NCBI RefSeq assembly: GCF_028869115.1
Contig: NZ_CP079800.1
Location: 992,001-1,056,000, forward strand
DNA from: Pseudemcibacter aquimaris
Lineage (GTDB): Bacteria; Pseudomonadota; Alphaproteobacteria; Sphingomonadales; Emcibacteraceae
DNA: 64,000 bases
Reading direction: 5' to 3'
Positions 23,331-29,856 of this stretch are shown here, in pieces. Position 1 is the stretch's first letter, and each line of letters opens with the position of its first letter. The translations under genes were made by a program, and so were the position numbers. A model generated the notes under the pieces. The model was not told the origin of the DNA and made no database searches. It saw only the letters and a list, made by a program, of their open reading frames with translations.

Positions 23331-23338
23331 GTTGCTAT
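23314..23338. terminator. Hairpin between convergent genes
   Basis: ATAGCAAC and GTTGCTAT pair around a 9-base A-rich loop and are followed on the + strand by a T-rich run. It overlaps the HPt stop codon and touches the stop of the opposite gene, so it can serve both directions. Confidence 0.65.
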
Positions 23339-25011
23339 TTTTCTTTTCTTTTATCTTTCAACCACTTTTGAAATTTTGGTGCCTGTTCTTCCATGAATTC
23401 CGGCCACGGATCGTTGATACCTTTGAAAAGCACTCTTTTATTTGTTTGATAAGGTAAGTATTCTTCATGAAAAATCCACCATGGATCGCCGGCTGAGAAA
23501 ATCCAACTTTCAACACCTGCCATACCAGATTGCATAAGCGGTGCTGATGCTGGTCCCATCACTAAATCAAGTGATGTCATCATCGCAGTAGTGCCTTCGA
23601 TATCATTTTTTAAATCTAAGCCTTCTATTTGGTGAATTTTAATGCCGGTTTCTTTTTCCAGTTCTTCCAGTTCATCTTTGCAGTCACCATATTGTACATT
23701 GACGAAATTAATATTTTTTTCCTTTAGGAACGGAACCCAGTCAAGAATGCTTGCATAGTTTCTGGCACGTTTTGCATATTGAAGTCCACTTCGCCACGCA
23801 ATGCCTACAGAAATATCATGCGGCAGTTTTTCAATTTCTATTTGCCATTTATCTACAATTTCAGGGTTAGGTTTAAGAGTAGGCTTGTTATTTATTTGAA
23901 TATCTTCTTTATTATGCCAATATTGGCCCATTAAATCACCAGCCATAAATAAATAATCATATTCTTCTATTTCGAGGTCTGGACAAGTATATATATTATA
24001 ATCAAGTTTTTTGTTTAATAGAAAAACTGTACTACCAACATCAGCATTTGGAAAACTGTATTTGAATAAATTTACAAGCCTATCTTGACAGGATAGACCA
24101 ACTTTTTTTGCATCTTTAATAACTTGATTATAAAGCCAAGCAAATTGAATTTCGTCACCAATCCCTTGTTCGGCAAAAATAAGGATCTTTTTATCTTTTA
24201 AATCTTGGCCATTCCAATACGGCTTGCCGTGATATCTAAGTGAATAATTAAAATGCAGACGGGTTTTTCTGCCTTTATAATAATCCCATGCTTTATCATA
24301 TTGGTTTTGTTTGACGTAAAAATTAAATAAAAATAACTTAGGGTCAGCTTGATTTGGATCCAGTTTTAACGCTTTTAAACCTGCTTCTTCAGCCTTCTTG
24401 TATTCGCCAACGGAATAATATGCTGGTCCAATATTATTTAATACCTGTTTGTTGTTTGGGTCTATTTTAAGTGCTTCTTCATAAAAAACGATAGCGTGCC
24501 CAGGGCCATCTCGAAAGCCTACGGTAGCGCCTAACGTATTCCAGAGCGCATCTTTATCGGGGAAAATTGGAATAACATCTTTTAAAAAGTCAATGGCTTC
24601 ATCTAGTTGTCCTGCTTCGCGTAATGCGGTGGCATAGTTGTTATAAGGAACAATTTCACCAGGTTCTAACTGCATATGAAGGTTATGAAATTTTAACGCC
24701 AGGTCAAAATAATTTAGGCTAAGTGCAGTATTGCCCAATATGGATGCAATGTTGGGGTTATCTGGATTTTTTTGCAGCACATGTTCAAGTAAATTCATGG
24801 AAGCAGTCTTATTGCCGTTTTTCGCAAGACAGTCGGCGACAGCAATAGAAACCTTTGCGTCCGTATCGTCATACTTCCAAGCGGATGTAAAGTACTGTAA
24901 AGCTTCCAGGTTTTTACCTTGTTTATGAAGTTTAAAGCCCATTCTTACTTGTTTATTGTATTGGGCTCTGTTTTTTGGTGCTGTTAATTTTCCAGTCTGT
25001 TTTTTTGCCAT
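23335..25011 (-). CDS. TPR protein with glycosyltransferase-like C-terminal half
   Basis: A 558-residue protein. Residues 20-250 hold TPR units (GFKLHKQGKNLEALQYFTSA, ISIAV-type helices, LKFHNLHMQLEPGEIVPYNN, VLNNIGPAYYSVGEYKKAEE). Residues 275-550 have the ILIFAEQGIGDEIQFAWLYN motif near residue 278 and VSVGIAWRSG-like HDISVGIAWRSGLQYAKRA near residue 405, a pattern of GT41/heptosyltransferase-like enzymes fused to TPRs. Such proteins often sit next to flagellins in alphaproteobacteria, and the next gene on this side is flbT followed by the flagellins. Flagellin glycosylation is the likely role, by inference. No donor-sugar genes are nearby. Confidence 0.75.
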   Translation of the reverse strand: MAKKQTGKLTAPKNRAQYNKQVRMGFKLHKQGKNLEALQYFTSAWKYDDTDAKVSIAVADCLAKNGNKTASMNLLEHVLQKNPDNPNIASILGNTALSLNYFDLALKFHNLHMQLEPGEIVPYNNYATALREAGQLDEAIDFLKDVIPIFPDKDALWNTLGATVGFRDGPGHAIVFYEEALKIDPNNKQVLNNIGPAYYSVGEYKKAEEAGLKALKLDPNQADPKLFLFNFYVKQNQYDKAWDYYKGRKTRLHFNYSLRYHGKPYWNGQDLKDKKILIFAEQGIGDEIQFAWLYNQVIKDAKKVGLSCQDRLVNLFKYSFPNADVGSTVFLLNKKLDYNIYTCPDLEIEEYDYLFMAGDLMGQYWHNKEDIQINNKPTLKPNPEIVDKWQIEIEKLPHDISVGIAWRSGLQYAKRARNYASILDWVPFLKEKNINFVNVQYGDCKDELEELEKETGIKIHQIEGLDLKNDIEGTTAMMTSLDLVMGPASAPLMQSGMAGVESWIFSAGDPWWIFHEEYLPYQTNKRVLFKGINDPWPEFMEEQAPKFQKWLKDKRKEK

Positions 25012-25174: not shown

Positions 25175-25570
25175 ATGGCTTTAAAATTGTCATTAAAACC
25201 GGGAGAGAAGTTCGTCGTTAACGGGGCAGTGATCGTTAATGGTGACAGACGAAGCACATTAGTCCTGCAAAATAAAGCATCACTTTTAAGGGAAAAGGAT
25301 ATTTTACTGGCTGAAGATGTCGATACACCAGTAAAGCATGTATATTTCCCAATTATGTTGATGTACATGGATCCGGATGGATACAAAAAGTATCATGAAC
25401 AATTTGTTCTTCGAATGACGGAGTTTCTAAGTGTTGTAGAAGATGCTGAAACTAAATTACTTTGTGTTGCAATCAGTAAGGATGTCATGGACGGGGAATT
25501 TTATAAAGCGTTAATGAAATGCAAAAAGCTATTCAAATACGAGCAATCGAGATTGGCATATGAAGAGTAA
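25175..25570 (+). CDS. flbT: Flagellin mRNA regulator FlbT
   Basis: A 131-residue protein matching FlbT: start LKLSLKPGEKFVVNGAVI, middle DRRSTLVLQNKASLLREKDI and the VKHVYFPIMLMY segment near residue 51. In Caulobacter FlbT binds the 5' leader of flagellin mRNA and blocks translation until the hook is finished. Its own ribosome-binding site is AAAGGAA. It overlaps flaF by 11 bases and lies directly ahead of the flagellins, three of which share a structured leader that could be its target. Confidence 0.93.
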   Translation: MALKLSLKPGEKFVVNGAVIVNGDRRSTLVLQNKASLLREKDILLAEDVDTPVKHVYFPIMLMYMDPDGYKKYHEQFVLRMTEFLSVVEDAETKLLCVAISKDVMDGEFYKALMKCKKLFKYEQSRLAYEE

Positions 25571-26027
25571 CCCTTATCAGCAATCGATACAAAAAACTGA
25601 ATCGCCACAGCAAACCGAATACCGACTGTTTGTTGAAGTGACACGTGCCTTAATGGATGCTAAAGATCTTGAGAAAACAGATCCAAAGCTTCATGATGCG
25701 TTACACTGGAACAGGCGTATGTGGTCCACTTTTGCAACCGATTGTGCGATTGAAGGAAATAAATTACCGAAAATGCTTCGGGCACAAATTATTTCGCTTT
25801 CTATTTGGGTAGGGAAGCATAGTTCAAAAATTATTCGTGAAGATGAAGATATTCAAGCACTCATTGATGTGAACAAAACGGTAATGGAAGGGCTCGCCAT
25901 GCAAGAACGCAATGCAGCTGGACAAAACCAGACAACACCTCAAGGGAATCAAACCGCACCATCTGCACCAGAGGCGGGCAATAATCCTGCAGCTCGGGCA
26001 GGATCTAGTGCATCAATTAAAGTATAA
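25560..26027 (+). CDS. flaF: Flagellin synthesis regulator FlaF
   Basis: A 155-residue protein of the FlaF family. Conserved marks: NPYQQSIQKTESPQQTEYRLF near the start (in part ESPQQTEYRLF), LHDALHWNRRMWSTFATDC near residue 46, and LRAQIISLSIWVGKHSSKI near residue 77. FlaF promotes flagellin translation or secretion and works against FlbT. The C-terminal 45 residues are a low-complexity Gln/Pro/Ala/Asn tail that is longer than usual for the family. It is coupled to flbT by an 11-base overlap. Confidence 0.92.
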   Translation: MKSNPYQQSIQKTESPQQTEYRLFVEVTRALMDAKDLEKTDPKLHDALHWNRRMWSTFATDCAIEGNKLPKMLRAQIISLSIWVGKHSSKIIREDEDIQALIDVNKTVMEGLAMQERNAAGQNQTTPQGNQTAPSAPEAGNNPAARAGSSASIKV

Positions 26028-26129: not shown

Positions 26130-26219
26130 GGGTTGTAATGTAATGTTGCACCGTTAGTGATTGTCAGAATGACAGGATTGTTAACAATAACTGGCTGATA
26201 TAAAATCGGCTCTAACTTA

Positions 26220-26260
26220 TAGAAGCAAAACGCTTCTAATATATATGCTCTAGAATGGAG
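26220..26260 (+). promoter_or_regulatory. Flagellin leader element, copy 1
   Basis: A 7-bp hairpin (TAGAAGC, loop AAAAC, GCTTCTA) at 26220-26238 is followed by CTCTAGAATGGAG at 26248-26260, 8 bases before the ATG. The motif contains the ribosome-binding site GGAG and can fold back on itself through CTCT. Copies 2 and 3 precede the next two flagellins. Confidence 0.7.
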
Positions 26261-26268
26261 AAAGTAGT

Positions 26269-27084
26269 ATGGGTTTTTCCGTAAATACAAATGCAGGCGC
26301 ACTCGTCGCTTTGCAAAATCTTAATAAGACAAATTCGCAGCTCAATGCTGTACAGAGCAAGATTAACACTGGTCTAAAAGTATCTGGTGCTAAAGATGAT
26401 GCATCGATTTTTGCGATTGCGCAAAAACAACGTGCAGAACTTGGTGGGCTTTCAGCAGTACAATCCAGTCTTGATCGTGCAACTGGCGCACTTGATGTTG
26501 CGATTGCCGGTGCCGAAGCTGTTTCGGATCTTCTTATTCAAATGAAAGAGAAGGCGGTAGCATCTAAGGACTCTGGTAATGATACAGCTTCCAGAACACT
26601 GTTGAATAACGATTATTAGCAACTGTTATCACAAATCGATACAATTGTTGATAATGCTGAATTTAACGGCAGAAATTCGCTTAATGGTACTGATGATGTC
26701 GTAGCGATCGTGAATGCTGATGCTTCCAGTGATATTACTGTTACTGCACAAGGGCTAAATGCAAGTTCTCTTGGTGTTAGTGGTGGTACTATTGCGACAG
26801 CAGGCGGCGCAAGCGATGCTGTTGACGCAATTGATACTGCGATTAACCAGGTTAACTCAGCGTTATCAGCGCTTGGTGCTGGTGCCAAACGTATCGAGGT
26901 TGTTGGATCGTTCGTTGAAAAACTATCTGACGCTATCGAAATTGGTATTGGTAATCTTGTGGATGCAGACTTGGCTCGTGAAAGCGCGAACTTGCAATCG
27001 TTGCAGGTGAAGCAGCAGCTAGGTTTGCAGGCGCTATCTATTGCCAATCAGGCTCCTGGAACAGTGCTCTCACTCTTCAGATAA
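26269..27084 (+). pseudogene. Flagellin 1, interrupted by an amber codon
   Basis: A flagellin of 271 codons, the same length as the intact copy at 27680 and nearly identical to it at both conserved ends. A TAG at 26617-26619 stands at codon 117, where the other two plus-strand copies have CAG or CAA (Gln) in NDYQQL. So a single C-to-T change explains it. Beyond the stop the frame continues without fault to the conserved flagellin end (LQALSIANQAPGTVLSLFR). The truncated product would lack the C-terminal D0 helix and could not polymerise. A hairpin at 27101-27123 follows. Either a silent gene or a base error. Confidence 0.9.
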
Positions 27085-27100
27085 ATTATCGAACATTATT

Positions 27101-27123
27101 CTGGTGGGGCTATTCCTCACCAG
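27101..27123 (+). terminator. Hairpin after flagellin 1
   Basis: CTGGTGGGG and CCTCACCAG (one mismatch) pair around a short loop. No T-run follows directly, so it may be a weak terminator or a 3' stabiliser. A similar hairpin follows flagellin 2. Confidence 0.5.
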
Positions 27124-27168
27124 GGTATTTAACAAAGTTGACTTAAAGTTGGAACAAAAGAGGATATT

Positions 27169-27582
27169 ATGGTTGATGGATTAAACACATATGGCGCGGG
27201 TGCTACCGTTGCTGGTGTTGTTCAGCAAGCGGCCACCCCTCAAAAAAGAGAAGGTGGCGCAGCCACTGAAAAAACCGAAGCACGTCCTGAAGAGACGAAA
27301 GCGGACCAGGCCCAAACCATAAAGAATCTTCTTGCTGAAGAAACTAAAGGTAAAGGTGACTTTATCAGTCAAGCAGAAGCCATTTTAAACAAGGCTTTAT
27401 CCTTGAAATCAATCAATACGAAATTGAGTATTGATGTGGATGATGGATCAGGACTTTTTGTTTATAAAGGCATCGATAAAAAATCTGGTGAAGTCGTTTC
27501 TCAATTCCCTGCGGAAGAGATATTAGCATTAATTTCATATTATCGCGAAGCAGAAGGATTAGTGGTCGATGAGACCGCTTAA
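27169..27582 (+). CDS. flaG: FlaG family protein
   Basis: A 137-residue soluble protein. The first 65 residues are a charged low-complexity stretch (Glu, Thr, Ala, Lys). The C-terminal half has the FlaG fold signature: a strand TKLSIDVDDGSGLFVYKGIDKKSGEVV, in part LFVYKGIDKKSGEVVSQFP near residue 94, then the PAEEILALI end, equivalent to the family's IPSEEVL. FlaG proteins affect filament length or flagellin assembly. It lies between two flagellins. A good ribosome-binding site (AAGAGGA) precedes the ATG. Confidence 0.82.
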   Translation: MVDGLNTYGAGATVAGVVQQAATPQKREGGAATEKTEARPEETKADQAQTIKNLLAEETKGKGDFISQAEAILNKALSLKSINTKLSIDVDDGSGLFVYKGIDKKSGEVVSQFPAEEILALISYYREAEGLVVDETA

Positions 27583-27597
27583 ATAAAGAGGATTATT

Positions 27598-27678
27598 ATG
27601 AAAAATATCACAGTAATTCTGTTTAATTTTAACCAAGAAGCAAAATGCTTCTTAACAGCTCTAGAATGGAGAATTTAG
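27598..27678 (+). CDS. Possible 26-codon leader peptide before flagellin 2
   Basis: A short reading frame starts at ATG 27598 behind AAAGAGG, runs through the flagellin leader hairpin and the CTCTAGAATGGAG motif, and stops with TAG at 27676-27678, one base before the flagellin 2 ATG. Ribosomes translating it would melt the hairpin and end at the flagellin start, so it could couple flagellin translation. No equivalent is present before flagellins 1 or 3, so chance is quite possible. Confidence 0.3.
   Translation: MKNITVILFNFNQEAKCFLTALEWRI
27635..27671 (+). promoter_or_regulatory. Flagellin leader element, copy 2
   Basis: Hairpin AAGAAGC, loop AAAAT, GCTTCTT at 27635-27653, then CTCTAGAATGGAG at 27659-27671, 8 bases before the ATG. 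Stem bases differ from copy 1 at the outer pair with pairing kept, while the core GCAAAAyGC is the same. Confidence 0.7.
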
Positions 27679-27679
27679 T

Positions 27680-28495
27680 ATGGGTTTTTCCGTAAATACA
27701 AATGCTGGTGCTCTCGTAGCACTGCAAAACTTAAACAAAACTAACGCACAGCTTAACACTGTGCAAAGTAAAATTAACACTGGTCTTAAAGTGGCGGGTG
27801 CCAAGGACGATGCGTCTATTTTCGCGATTGCGCAAAAGCAACGTGCTGAACTTGGTGGTCTATCTGCTGTACAATCAAGTCTTGATCGTGCAACAGGTGC
27901 ACTTGATGTTGCCATTGCTGGTGCCGAGGCGGTTTCCGATCTTCTAATTCAAATGAAAGAGAAGGCGGTTGCTTCTAAGGATGCTGGTAATGACGCGACT
28001 TCACGTGGTCTTCTGGACAATGACTATCAGCAATTGGTTGCTCAAATCAATACTATCGTGAACAACGCCGAATTTAACGGCCGTAATTCACTTAATGGTA
28101 CTGATGATATTGTTGCAATCGTGAATGCTGATGCATCAAGTCAAATTAGTGTTGCTGCACAAGATCTTACAGCAACTACACTGAACCTTGATGATACAAC
28201 TATTGATTCAGAAACAGATGCAACTACTGCATTGACTGCGATTGAAAACGCGATCGATACTGTTAATACCTCACTATCAGCACTTGGTGCTGGCGCAAAA
28301 CGTGTTGAAGTGGTTGGCTCATTCGTTGAGAAACTATCAGACGCTATTGAGGTTGGTATTGGTAACCTTGTGGATGCCGATCTGGCTAGAGAAAGTGCGA
28401 ACTTGCAATCGTTGCAGGTTAAGCAGCAACTTGGTTTGCAGGCGCTTTCAATTGCCAACCAAGCCCCAGGAACAGTGCTATCACTCTTCCGTTAA
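27680..28495 (+). CDS. Flagellin 2 (the only intact flagellin here)
   Basis: A 271-residue flagellin. The N-terminal D0/D1 helices (GFSVNTNAGALVALQNLNKT, INTGLKV, AKDDASIFAIAQKQRAELGG) and C-terminal helices (GNLVDADLARESANLQSLQVKQQLG, in part VDADLARESANLQSLQ, ending PGTVLSLFR) are complete. The middle, about residues 145-190, is short and variable among the paralogues. At this length it has no large D2/D3 domains, as usual in alphaproteobacteria. It carries leader element copy 2. In this window it is the only flagellin with both ends and no stop. Confidence 0.95.
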   Translation: MGFSVNTNAGALVALQNLNKTNAQLNTVQSKINTGLKVAGAKDDASIFAIAQKQRAELGGLSAVQSSLDRATGALDVAIAGAEAVSDLLIQMKEKAVASKDAGNDATSRGLLDNDYQQLVAQINTIVNNAEFNGRNSLNGTDDIVAIVNADASSQISVAAQDLTATTLNLDDTTIDSETDATTALTAIENAIDTVNTSLSALGAGAKRVEVVGSFVEKLSDAIEVGIGNLVDADLARESANLQSLQVKQQLGLQALSIANQAPGTVLSLFR

Positions 28496-28507
28496 TAGTA
28501 TTAAGTT

Positions 28508-28534
28508 TTCGGTGGGACTATAGGTCCCACTGAA
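28508..28534 (+). terminator. Hairpin after flagellin 2
   Basis: TTCGGTGGGAC and GTCCCACTGAA pair almost perfectly around a short loop. There is no strong T-run. It resembles the hairpin after flagellin 1 in position and in the GGTGGG core. Confidence 0.55.
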
Positions 28535-28542
28535 GATAAATT

Positions 28543-28579
28543 GAGCAAAACGCTCTCTCGCTTAAACTCTAGAATGGAG
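28543..28579 (+). promoter_or_regulatory. Flagellin leader element, copy 3
   Basis: A shortened hairpin GAGC, AAAAC, GCTC at 28543-28555 keeps the core GCAAAACGC, followed by the exact motif CTCTAGAATGGAG at 28567-28579, 7 bases before the ATG. Confidence 0.65.
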
Positions 28580-28586
28580 ATTTAAA

Positions 28587-29164
28587 ATGGGTTTTTCTGT
28601 TAATACAAATGCTGGTGCACTCGTTGCCCTGCAAAATCTTAACAAAACCAATATGCAGCTTAACGCTGTACAAAGCAAAATCAACACTGGTCTTAAAGTG
28701 TCTGGTGCCAAAGATGATGCGTCTATTTTTGCGATCGCGCAAAAGCAACGTGCTGAACTTGGCGGCCTTTCTGCTGTAACGTCCAGTCTTGATCGTGCAA
28801 CTGGTGCGCTTGATGTTGCCATCGCTGGTGCTGAAGCGGCTTCTGACCTTCTTATTCAAATGAAAGAGAAGGCTGTAGCAGCTAAAGATTCTGGTAATGA
28901 TACAGCGTCAAGAACACTATTGGATAATGATTATCAACAATTGCTATCTCAAATTGATACCATTGTGAATAACGCTGAATTTAACGGTCGTAATTCACTT
29001 GATGGTACTGATGATATTGTTGCGATCGTGAATGCGGATGCTTCCAGTGACATTACTGTTACTGCACAGGATCTAAACGCGACGGCACTTGGAATTAACG
29101 GCAGTGATATTACAACTGCTGGAAATGCTAGTGATGCTGTGGCTGATATTGATACAGCGATTAA
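28587..29164 (+). pseudogene. Flagellin 3, C-terminus missing at an inverted junction
   Basis: The first 192 or so residues match flagellins 1 and 2 closely through ASDAVADIDTAIK. At about 29161-29166 the homology stops abruptly. The sequence after it is the reverse complement of another flagellin gene. The frame then runs a few more meaningless codons to a TGA at 29187-29189. About 78 residues, the whole C-terminal D0/D1 part, are lost, so the product should not assemble. It carries leader element copy 3. Real deletion or assembly join cannot be told apart here. Confidence 0.85.
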
Positions 29165-29771
29165 GAACAGCGTTCACGTTTGCGAGTGAGTTTTCAACAT
29201 CAGTTACAGCTGCTACGGCATCCGTAAGAGTGGCAATAGTTTGTGTTGCAGTAATATCAACATTACCACCGCCAAGAGTTAGATCTTCGTGTGCGATTGT
29301 GATCTTTTGCTGTGCATCAGGGCTTGTAATTGCCACGATGATATCAGTACCACCATCAATAAGGTTTGTGCCGTTAAATTCAGCATTTGTTGTGATGGTT
29401 GTGATTTGATCGCGAAGTGCCTCAAAGTCTTGCGCAAGTGCCGTACGGCTGTCCGTATCTAGACCAGCATCCGCCGCAGCAACAGCTTTCTCTTTCATTT
29501 CGATCAAGAGATCCGAAATAGAACTTGATGCAGCAAGTGCGATATCAATTGTACTGATGGAACGATCAAGACTTTGTTTTACCGCATTATAACCTCTAAG
29601 ATCAGCACGTAGTTGCTGAGCGATCGAGTAAACGGCAGCATTGTCTTTCGCTGATGAAATGCGAAGACCTGTATTAATTCTTGTTTGTGTTCCATCTAAA
29701 CTTTTTGTTGTTGCGTTTAGATTTTGTAGTGCACTTAAAGCACTAGCGTTTGTATTAACTGAAAAGCCCAT
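29161..29771 (-). pseudogene. Flagellin 4 (other subtype), C-terminus missing at the same junction
   Basis: A flagellin on the opposite strand. The start GFSVNTNASALSALQNLNAT, INTGLRISSAKDNAAVYSIA and the NAEFNGTNLIDGG segment place it in a different subtype from the other three, nearer to the usual alphaproteobacterial filament flagellins. True sequence ends at NSLANVNAVLN, about residue 203, where it meets flagellin 3 tail to tail. The open frame continues antisense through flagellin 3 to 29073 without meaning. It has its own sigma54 promoter and a plain AGGAGAG ribosome-binding site, and it lacks the CTCTAGAATGGAG leader. So it is controlled differently. Confidence 0.85.
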
Positions 29772-29840: not shown

Positions 29841-29856
29841 TGCAAATAGCGTGCCA
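29841..29856 (-). promoter_or_regulatory. Sigma54 promoter of flagellin 4
   Basis: On the minus strand: TGGCACGCTATTTGCA, an exact match to the RpoN consensus TGGCAC-N5-TTGCA, 70 bases before the ATG. Late flagellar genes of alphaproteobacteria are commonly driven by sigma54 with FlbD. Confidence 0.85.

Follow-up and report, generated by a model that had tools for sequence, protein, structure and literature searches.

The flagellin genes of the marine bacterium Pseudemcibacter aquimaris raise the question of which feature of a flagellin mRNA is recognised by FlbT, a protein known for more than two decades as coupling flagellin synthesis to assembly in Caulobacter. The locus lies in a stretch of 64,000 nucleotides (contig NZ_CP079800.1, positions 992,001 to 1,056,000), termed here the window, of a single-contig genome of 3.37 Mb whose named relatives by flagellin are Emcibacteraceae and Kordiimonadales. 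According to later papers that cite the primary work, FlbT binds the 5' untranslated region of fljK in Caulobacter crescentus (Anderson and Gober 2000, via PMC4347634, PMC3930126 and PMC7591256). It promotes the decay of its targets there, and in a review table its target motif is left blank and its mechanism is given as 'unresolved' (PMC4347634). Here, we show that flagellin leaders carry a tandem array of C-G-closed pentaloop hairpins, C-[A(A/G)AAN]-G, with one to four copies per leader. Judged from sequence, these hairpins are likely to be sites at which FlbT blocks the translation of flagellin as long as a co-repressor has not been exported, direct contact by FlbT being a prediction.

A common loop on varying stems

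A first-pass annotation of the window had described, for flagellins 1, 2 and 3, a hairpin with the core GCAAAAyGC followed by the exact 13-mer CTCTAGAATGGAG, which ends 7-8 bases ahead of each ATG, and both were located at all three genes (Table 1). The 13-mer has no further copy in the whole genome with one mismatch allowed. With two mismatches 0.69 copies are expected in the window, and none of 100 shuffles reached three. It is also true that the stems of copies 1 and 2 differ with pairing kept, but the difference is confined to one stem pair and therefore gives weak covariation evidence by itself.

The broader evidence comes from 274 leaders, 206 from flagellins of relatives and 68 from divergent alphaproteobacteria, with related leaders treated as independent in the statistics. 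In a list of perfect hairpins with loops of 3-9 nucleotides, compiled from the 206 leaders with no prior motif, loops of five nucleotides were the most enriched (309 versus 102 in shuffled leaders) and read A-R-A-A-N, the fifth base being near random. The complete set contains 303 ARAAN hairpins versus 8 in shuffles; 259 of them are closed by a C-G pair, followed by GC, CG, AU or UA, and their positions cluster 5-10, 25-35 and 40-50 nucleotides ahead of the start codon. If pairing is not required, CARAANG still has a density of 13.6 per kb in leaders, against 0.58 per kb in the parts of the loci outside them. Three further outer pairs surround it in 254 of 402 leader occurrences (63%) versus 123 of the 1739 that lie outside the leaders (7%, p = 9e-127).

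Covariation was assessed in an alignment of 69 leaders picked by loop rather than by stem. The upstream hairpin (helix 1) is 94.6% paired with compensatory changes at four of its five pairs, and its 70 double-change cells compare with 24.5 in shuffles, none of 500 being as high. The last hairpin overlaps the Shine-Dalgarno sequence in this order, either in the register CUCU-AGAAU-GGAG or in the register UCUC-AGAAUG-GAGA; the proposed pairing of CTCT with the GGAG ribosome-binding site holds, variants included.

A covariance model found strong matches (E <= 6e-9) in its own genome only at the three window leaders. The model gave 67 matches with E < 1e-4 in 61 genomes of the order, and 66 of these lie directly at the start of a flagellin, as judged by comparing coordinates by hand. 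Absence of hairpin and motif from relatives had been named beforehand as grounds for dropping the idea; what was found are compensatory stems round a fixed loop, placed almost throughout at flagellins. The model is insensitive in Caulobacteraceae because the hairpin spacing differs there. Two weaker matches in the own genome (G000:C1:1976261 and 2591486) have no start codon behind them and were taken as chance, and the single strong non-flagellin match in relatives (G053:C2:140478) sits inside an open reading frame on the other strand.

Two further flagellins of the same genome are unlinked to the window, L211 (5227-6048, minus strand) and L212 (5169-5996, minus strand). L211 starts with GTG and has the hairpin AGGUUC-AGAAA-GAACCU ahead of it. 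The three window copies are duplicates whose coding sequences begin almost identically, which is what a functionless remnant of a recent flagellin duplication would look like. Since the stems covary we count this explanation as refuted and leave it a negligible probability: the compensatory changes extend over the 69 leaders, pairing far exceeds its background, the unlinked L211 has the same loop on an unrelated stem, and the element was lost in whole paralogue clades.

Co-occurrence with FlbT

In a panel of 385 alphaproteobacterial genomes FlbT was detected in 135, CsrA in 76 and flagellin in 235. CARAANG hairpins with at least two pairs are present in 32 of 66 leaders from divergent FlbT-positive genomes (2.5 in shuffles) versus 3 of 58 leaders from FlbT-negative genomes, the latter placed by match coordinates (p = 3e-8). 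All 21 Caulobacterales-side genomes that were checked have FlbT. A comparison with the published system was made in the Caulobacter-like genome G557, in which a FljK query sequence found a match of 96% identity. Its FljK-, FljL- and FljM/N/O-type leaders carry 2-3 ARAAN or near-ARAAN hairpins each, the FljK-type leader having GAGC-AAAAU-GCUC and GCC-AAAAU-GGC. A gene beside fljK and 50% identical to it has no hairpin in its leader; as the published identity between FljJ and FljK is 49% (PMC7591256), this neighbour fits FljJ. Hairpins on FljK-type genes and their absence on FljJ match the published FlbT regulon, in which FlbT-FljJ repression is relieved by secretion of FljJ (PMC7591256). The suggestion that the flagellin leaders are a candidate FlbT target is therefore supported by the FlbT association, by this presence on FljK-type and absence on FljJ genes, and by the loss of the element in two clades described below.

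These data also bear on the possibility that FlbT acts elsewhere and that the hairpins serve a different RNA-binding factor, be it Hfq, FlaF, some unknown protein or a small RNA. The distal face of Hfq prefers A-R-N steps, which the A-R-A-A-N loop resembles. The Hfq motif is listed as Poly(A)/ARN (PMC4347634). FlaF is encoded beside FlbT and for that reason is not separable from it by phylogeny. Nevertheless, the element follows FlbT, is rare in flagellated genomes that lack it, and agrees with what is known of the FlbT regulon, the exception of FljJ among it, so that we regard a different factor as unlikely. A signal for transcript stability independent of FlbT, acting through RNase or antitermination, draws on the fact that stability belongs to the Caulobacter phenotype, where FlbT promotes target decay. 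It leaves both the FlbT association and the FljJ exception unexplained and appears very improbable.

Paralogues that lack the element

The first-pass annotation had noted that flagellin 4 lacks the element and has a sigma54 promoter instead, and had concluded that two control modes coexist. The sigma54-type sequence (TGGCAC-N5-TTGC) and the lack of an element were both seen, and flagellin 4 taken alone fits the proposal, but it does not hold across relatives. In a set of 208 flagellin leaders taken from relatives' loci, 43 of the 67 with sigma54-like -24/-12 sequences carry hairpins as well, which rules out the promoter as a replacement of the element. In a tree of 240 flagellins the absence of the element tracks the paralogue clade and not the promoter type. 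One clade, which includes flagellin 4 and L212, is without it in all 28 members; a second, with the FljJ type (support 0.96), is without it in 32 of 33. The remaining 179 flagellins include 169 with at least one hairpin and 109 with at least two. L212 itself is intact, has no hairpin and shows a sigma54-type promoter.

FlbT and CsrA as possible alternative regulators

The 235 flagellin-bearing genomes divide into 128 with FlbT only, 64 with CsrA only, 5 with both and 38 with neither. FlbT and CsrA are thus nearly mutually exclusive among flagellated alphaproteobacteria, and no CsrA was found in the genome of P. aquimaris. Loops of the CsrA type, C-[ANGNA]-G, occur in 17 of 41 leaders from CsrA-positive, FlbT-negative genomes versus 3 of 67 from FlbT-positive ones. 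In the former (L213-L252 and L272; e.g., L243, L214, L235 and L227) C-G-closed loops such as AGGAA, AGGUA and AAGUA are found at similar positions, and these C-ANGNA-G hairpins are probably CsrA sites.

Whether the two proteins are related was addressed with profiles and models. With hmmscan the FlbT protein gave no match to the CsrA profile PF02599, only to the FlbT family. Its N-terminus aligns co-linearly with CsrA in hhalign (P 7e-5, probability 64%), a value not significant at database scale, with R39 of the FlbT sequence LRE opposite the conserved R44 of HRE in CsrA. The FlbT-CsrA profile score lies above all 362 decoys in both directions (24.1 versus at most 16.0, and 28.5 versus at most 17.8). 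An AlphaFold2 model of FlbT has five N-terminal strands followed by helices. Foldseek searches of the PDB with the full model and with the N-terminal 54 residues, which did not cover a strand-swapped dimer, gave nothing significant and no CsrA among the best 50 matches; the full model gave nothing significant against viral structures either. As no CsrA was returned, homology is put forward as a hypothesis. It is conceivable, at somewhat less than even chances, that FlbT belongs to the CsrA type but has diverged strongly, and that it took over the flagellin checkpoint from CsrA in the majority of flagellated alphaproteobacteria, with the loop code switching from ANGNA to ARAAN.

A possible mode of action

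We infer that FlbT, made from the upstream flbT, contacts the loops, each C-[ARAAN]-G hairpin being one putative binding site. As the same loop site is present several times on one mRNA, binding may well be multivalent, and FlbT, probably oligomeric, together with an unexported flagellin co-repressor would keep the mRNA non-translated and unstable. The start of translation would additionally be hidden where CTCT in the last hairpin is paired to the ribosome-binding site. After completion of the hook-basal body and export of the co-repressor FlbT would be released, and flagellin could be translated. As FljJ-type paralogues have no sites, they would be made first and could serve as the co-repressor whose export is sensed; for P. 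aquimaris we infer as candidates L212 and the broken flagellin 4.

Several observations weigh against this proposal. The Shine-Dalgarno stem varies mostly on its free side only and needs two registers, and in Maricaulis-type leaders the last hairpin (e.g., ACGU-AGAA-ACGU before a free GGAG) leaves the Shine-Dalgarno sequence open. Start hiding therefore cannot be the whole mechanism, and protein occupancy, not the hairpin itself, is likely the lock. The canonical CARAANG hairpin occurs in only about half of the divergent FlbT-positive leaders, so other FlbT lineages, e.g., the rhizobial ones, may use other sites. Leaders are related by descent and the p-values overstate their independence. FlbT was reported as an activator in Brucella (PMC8781033). 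Finally, flagellins 1, 3 and 4 are broken in the present assembly and flagellin 2 alone of the window's four is intact; flagellin regulation in this genome may therefore be decaying.

The open Shine-Dalgarno sequence of the Maricaulis type also counts against an element that works without any protein, its last hairpin hiding the ribosome-binding site for low or temperature-dependent translation. The pairing of CTCT and its variants with GGAG in this order would suit such a lock. An intrinsic lock, however, requires no loop code, while here the loop is conserved and the stems vary, and one to three further hairpins are distant from the Shine-Dalgarno sequence; we give this explanation little credence.

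Organisation of the locus

The position of flbT-flaF directly upstream of the flagellins was confirmed by Pfam matches to both genes (25175-26027). Next in order come flagellin 1, a FlaG gene, flagellins 2 and 3 and the convergent flagellin 4, and this flbT is the only one in the genome.

Table 1. Coordinates of genes, leader hairpins and promoter sequence at the flagellin locus (positions in the window)
Feature	Position	Strand	Evidence or remark
flbT, proposed trans-acting RNA-binding repressor (predicted)	25175..25570	+	PF07378, E 1.3e-44
flaF, flagellin secretion chaperone gene, overlaps flbT	25560..26027	+	PF07309, E 5.8e-34
Flagellin 1 leader hairpin TTGTC-AGAAT-GACAG	26161..26175	+	C-G-closed ARAAN pentaloop, stem of 5
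Flagellin 1 leader hairpin GGCTGAT-ATAAA-ATCGGCT, U at loop position 2	26193..26211	+	RNAfold
Flagellin 1 leader hairpin TAGAAGC-AAAAC-GCTTCTA	26220..26238	+	covariance model match, E 6e-9
Flagellin 1 leader Shine-Dalgarno hairpin CTCT-AGAAT-GGAG	26248..26260	+	exact 13-mer
Flagellin 1, in-frame TAG at 26617-26619	26269..27084	+	84% identity to flagellin 2, full length
Flagellin 2 leader hairpin AAGAAGC-AAAAT-GCTTCTT	27635..27653	+	covariance model match, E 2e-10
Flagellin 2 leader Shine-Dalgarno hairpin CTCT-AGAAT-GGAG	27659..27671	+	exact 13-mer
Flagellin 2, intact, 271 amino acids	27680..28495	+	PF00669 and PF00700
Flagellin 3 leader hairpin GAGC-AAAAC-GCTC	28543..28555	+	covariance model match, E 4e-10
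Flagellin 3 leader Shine-Dalgarno hairpin CTCT-AGAAT-GGAG	28567..28579	+	exact 13-mer
Flagellin 3, without C-terminal domain	28587..29189	+	PF00669 present, PF00700 absent; homology stops at residue 193/271
Flagellin 4, element-less paralogue, without C-terminal domain	29073..29771 (ATG at 29771)	-	homology, Pfam, clade
Sigma54-type -24/-12 of flagellin 4, TGGCAC-GCTAT-TTGC	29841..29856	-	consensus match only

At the site of the flagellin 1 hairpin with the ATAAA loop, the leaders L005, L007 and L008 have different stem bases and the identical loop. A 26-codon open frame, MKNITVILFNFNQEAKCFLTALEWRI (27598-27678), with its own AGAGGA, spans both hairpins of flagellin 2 and ends one base before the ATG; it is a possible leader peptide.

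The TAG codon of flagellin 1 corresponds to CAG in flagellins 2 and 3, and the gene is otherwise intact, so the codon points to a pseudogene of recent origin, to read-through or to an error of sequencing. At about 29165 (29160-29175) flagellins 3 and 4 meet tail to tail, both without their C-terminal part. The sequence AACAGCGTT at 29166-29174 fits microhomology at this joint, which is either a deletion or an assembly artefact. Divergent from flbT lies a gene for a TPR protein (23335-25011, minus strand), of which Pfam matched the TPR part only; its domain layout recalls the flagellin glycosyltransferase FlmG.

Comparison with known systems

Flg-Rhizobiales RNA is associated with flagellar genes and, like the present element, is a candidate cis-regulatory RNA of Alphaproteobacteria. 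It was named and listed in PMC2864571 and corresponds to Rfam family RF01736. This motif of 141 positions gave no match in the P. aquimaris genome and none above cut-off in 190 alphaproteobacterial genomes, and an Rfam scan of the window region returned no family above cut-off, only sub-threshold chance matches.

With the FlbT-fljK system of Caulobacter crescentus the regulator, the gene class and the leader position are all shared, whereas the element there does not clearly overlap the Shine-Dalgarno sequence. A loop code, a tandem architecture or a cross-order distribution was not found for it in the accessible literature, which does not include the primary FlbT-fljK and FlbT-FljJ papers. 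The code is simple and repeated one to four times per leader, so the question of the FlbT target becomes directly testable with short RNAs. It predicts FlbT targets from sequence and accounts for the ability of the FljJ paralogue to evade repression.

The pair FlbT/FlaF was called possibly analogous to CsrA-FliW (PMC4894983). In that system, represented by hag of Bacillus and flaA of Campylobacter, a repressor likewise acts on leader hairpins, at least one of them over the Shine-Dalgarno sequence, and is relieved by a flagellar assembly signal. In contrast, the loop code is GGA there and ARAAN here, FlbT has no Pfam CsrA match and this genome has no CsrA. The loop code further suggests that flagellin translation in alphaproteobacteria relies on either of two systems, which have their hairpin architecture in common.

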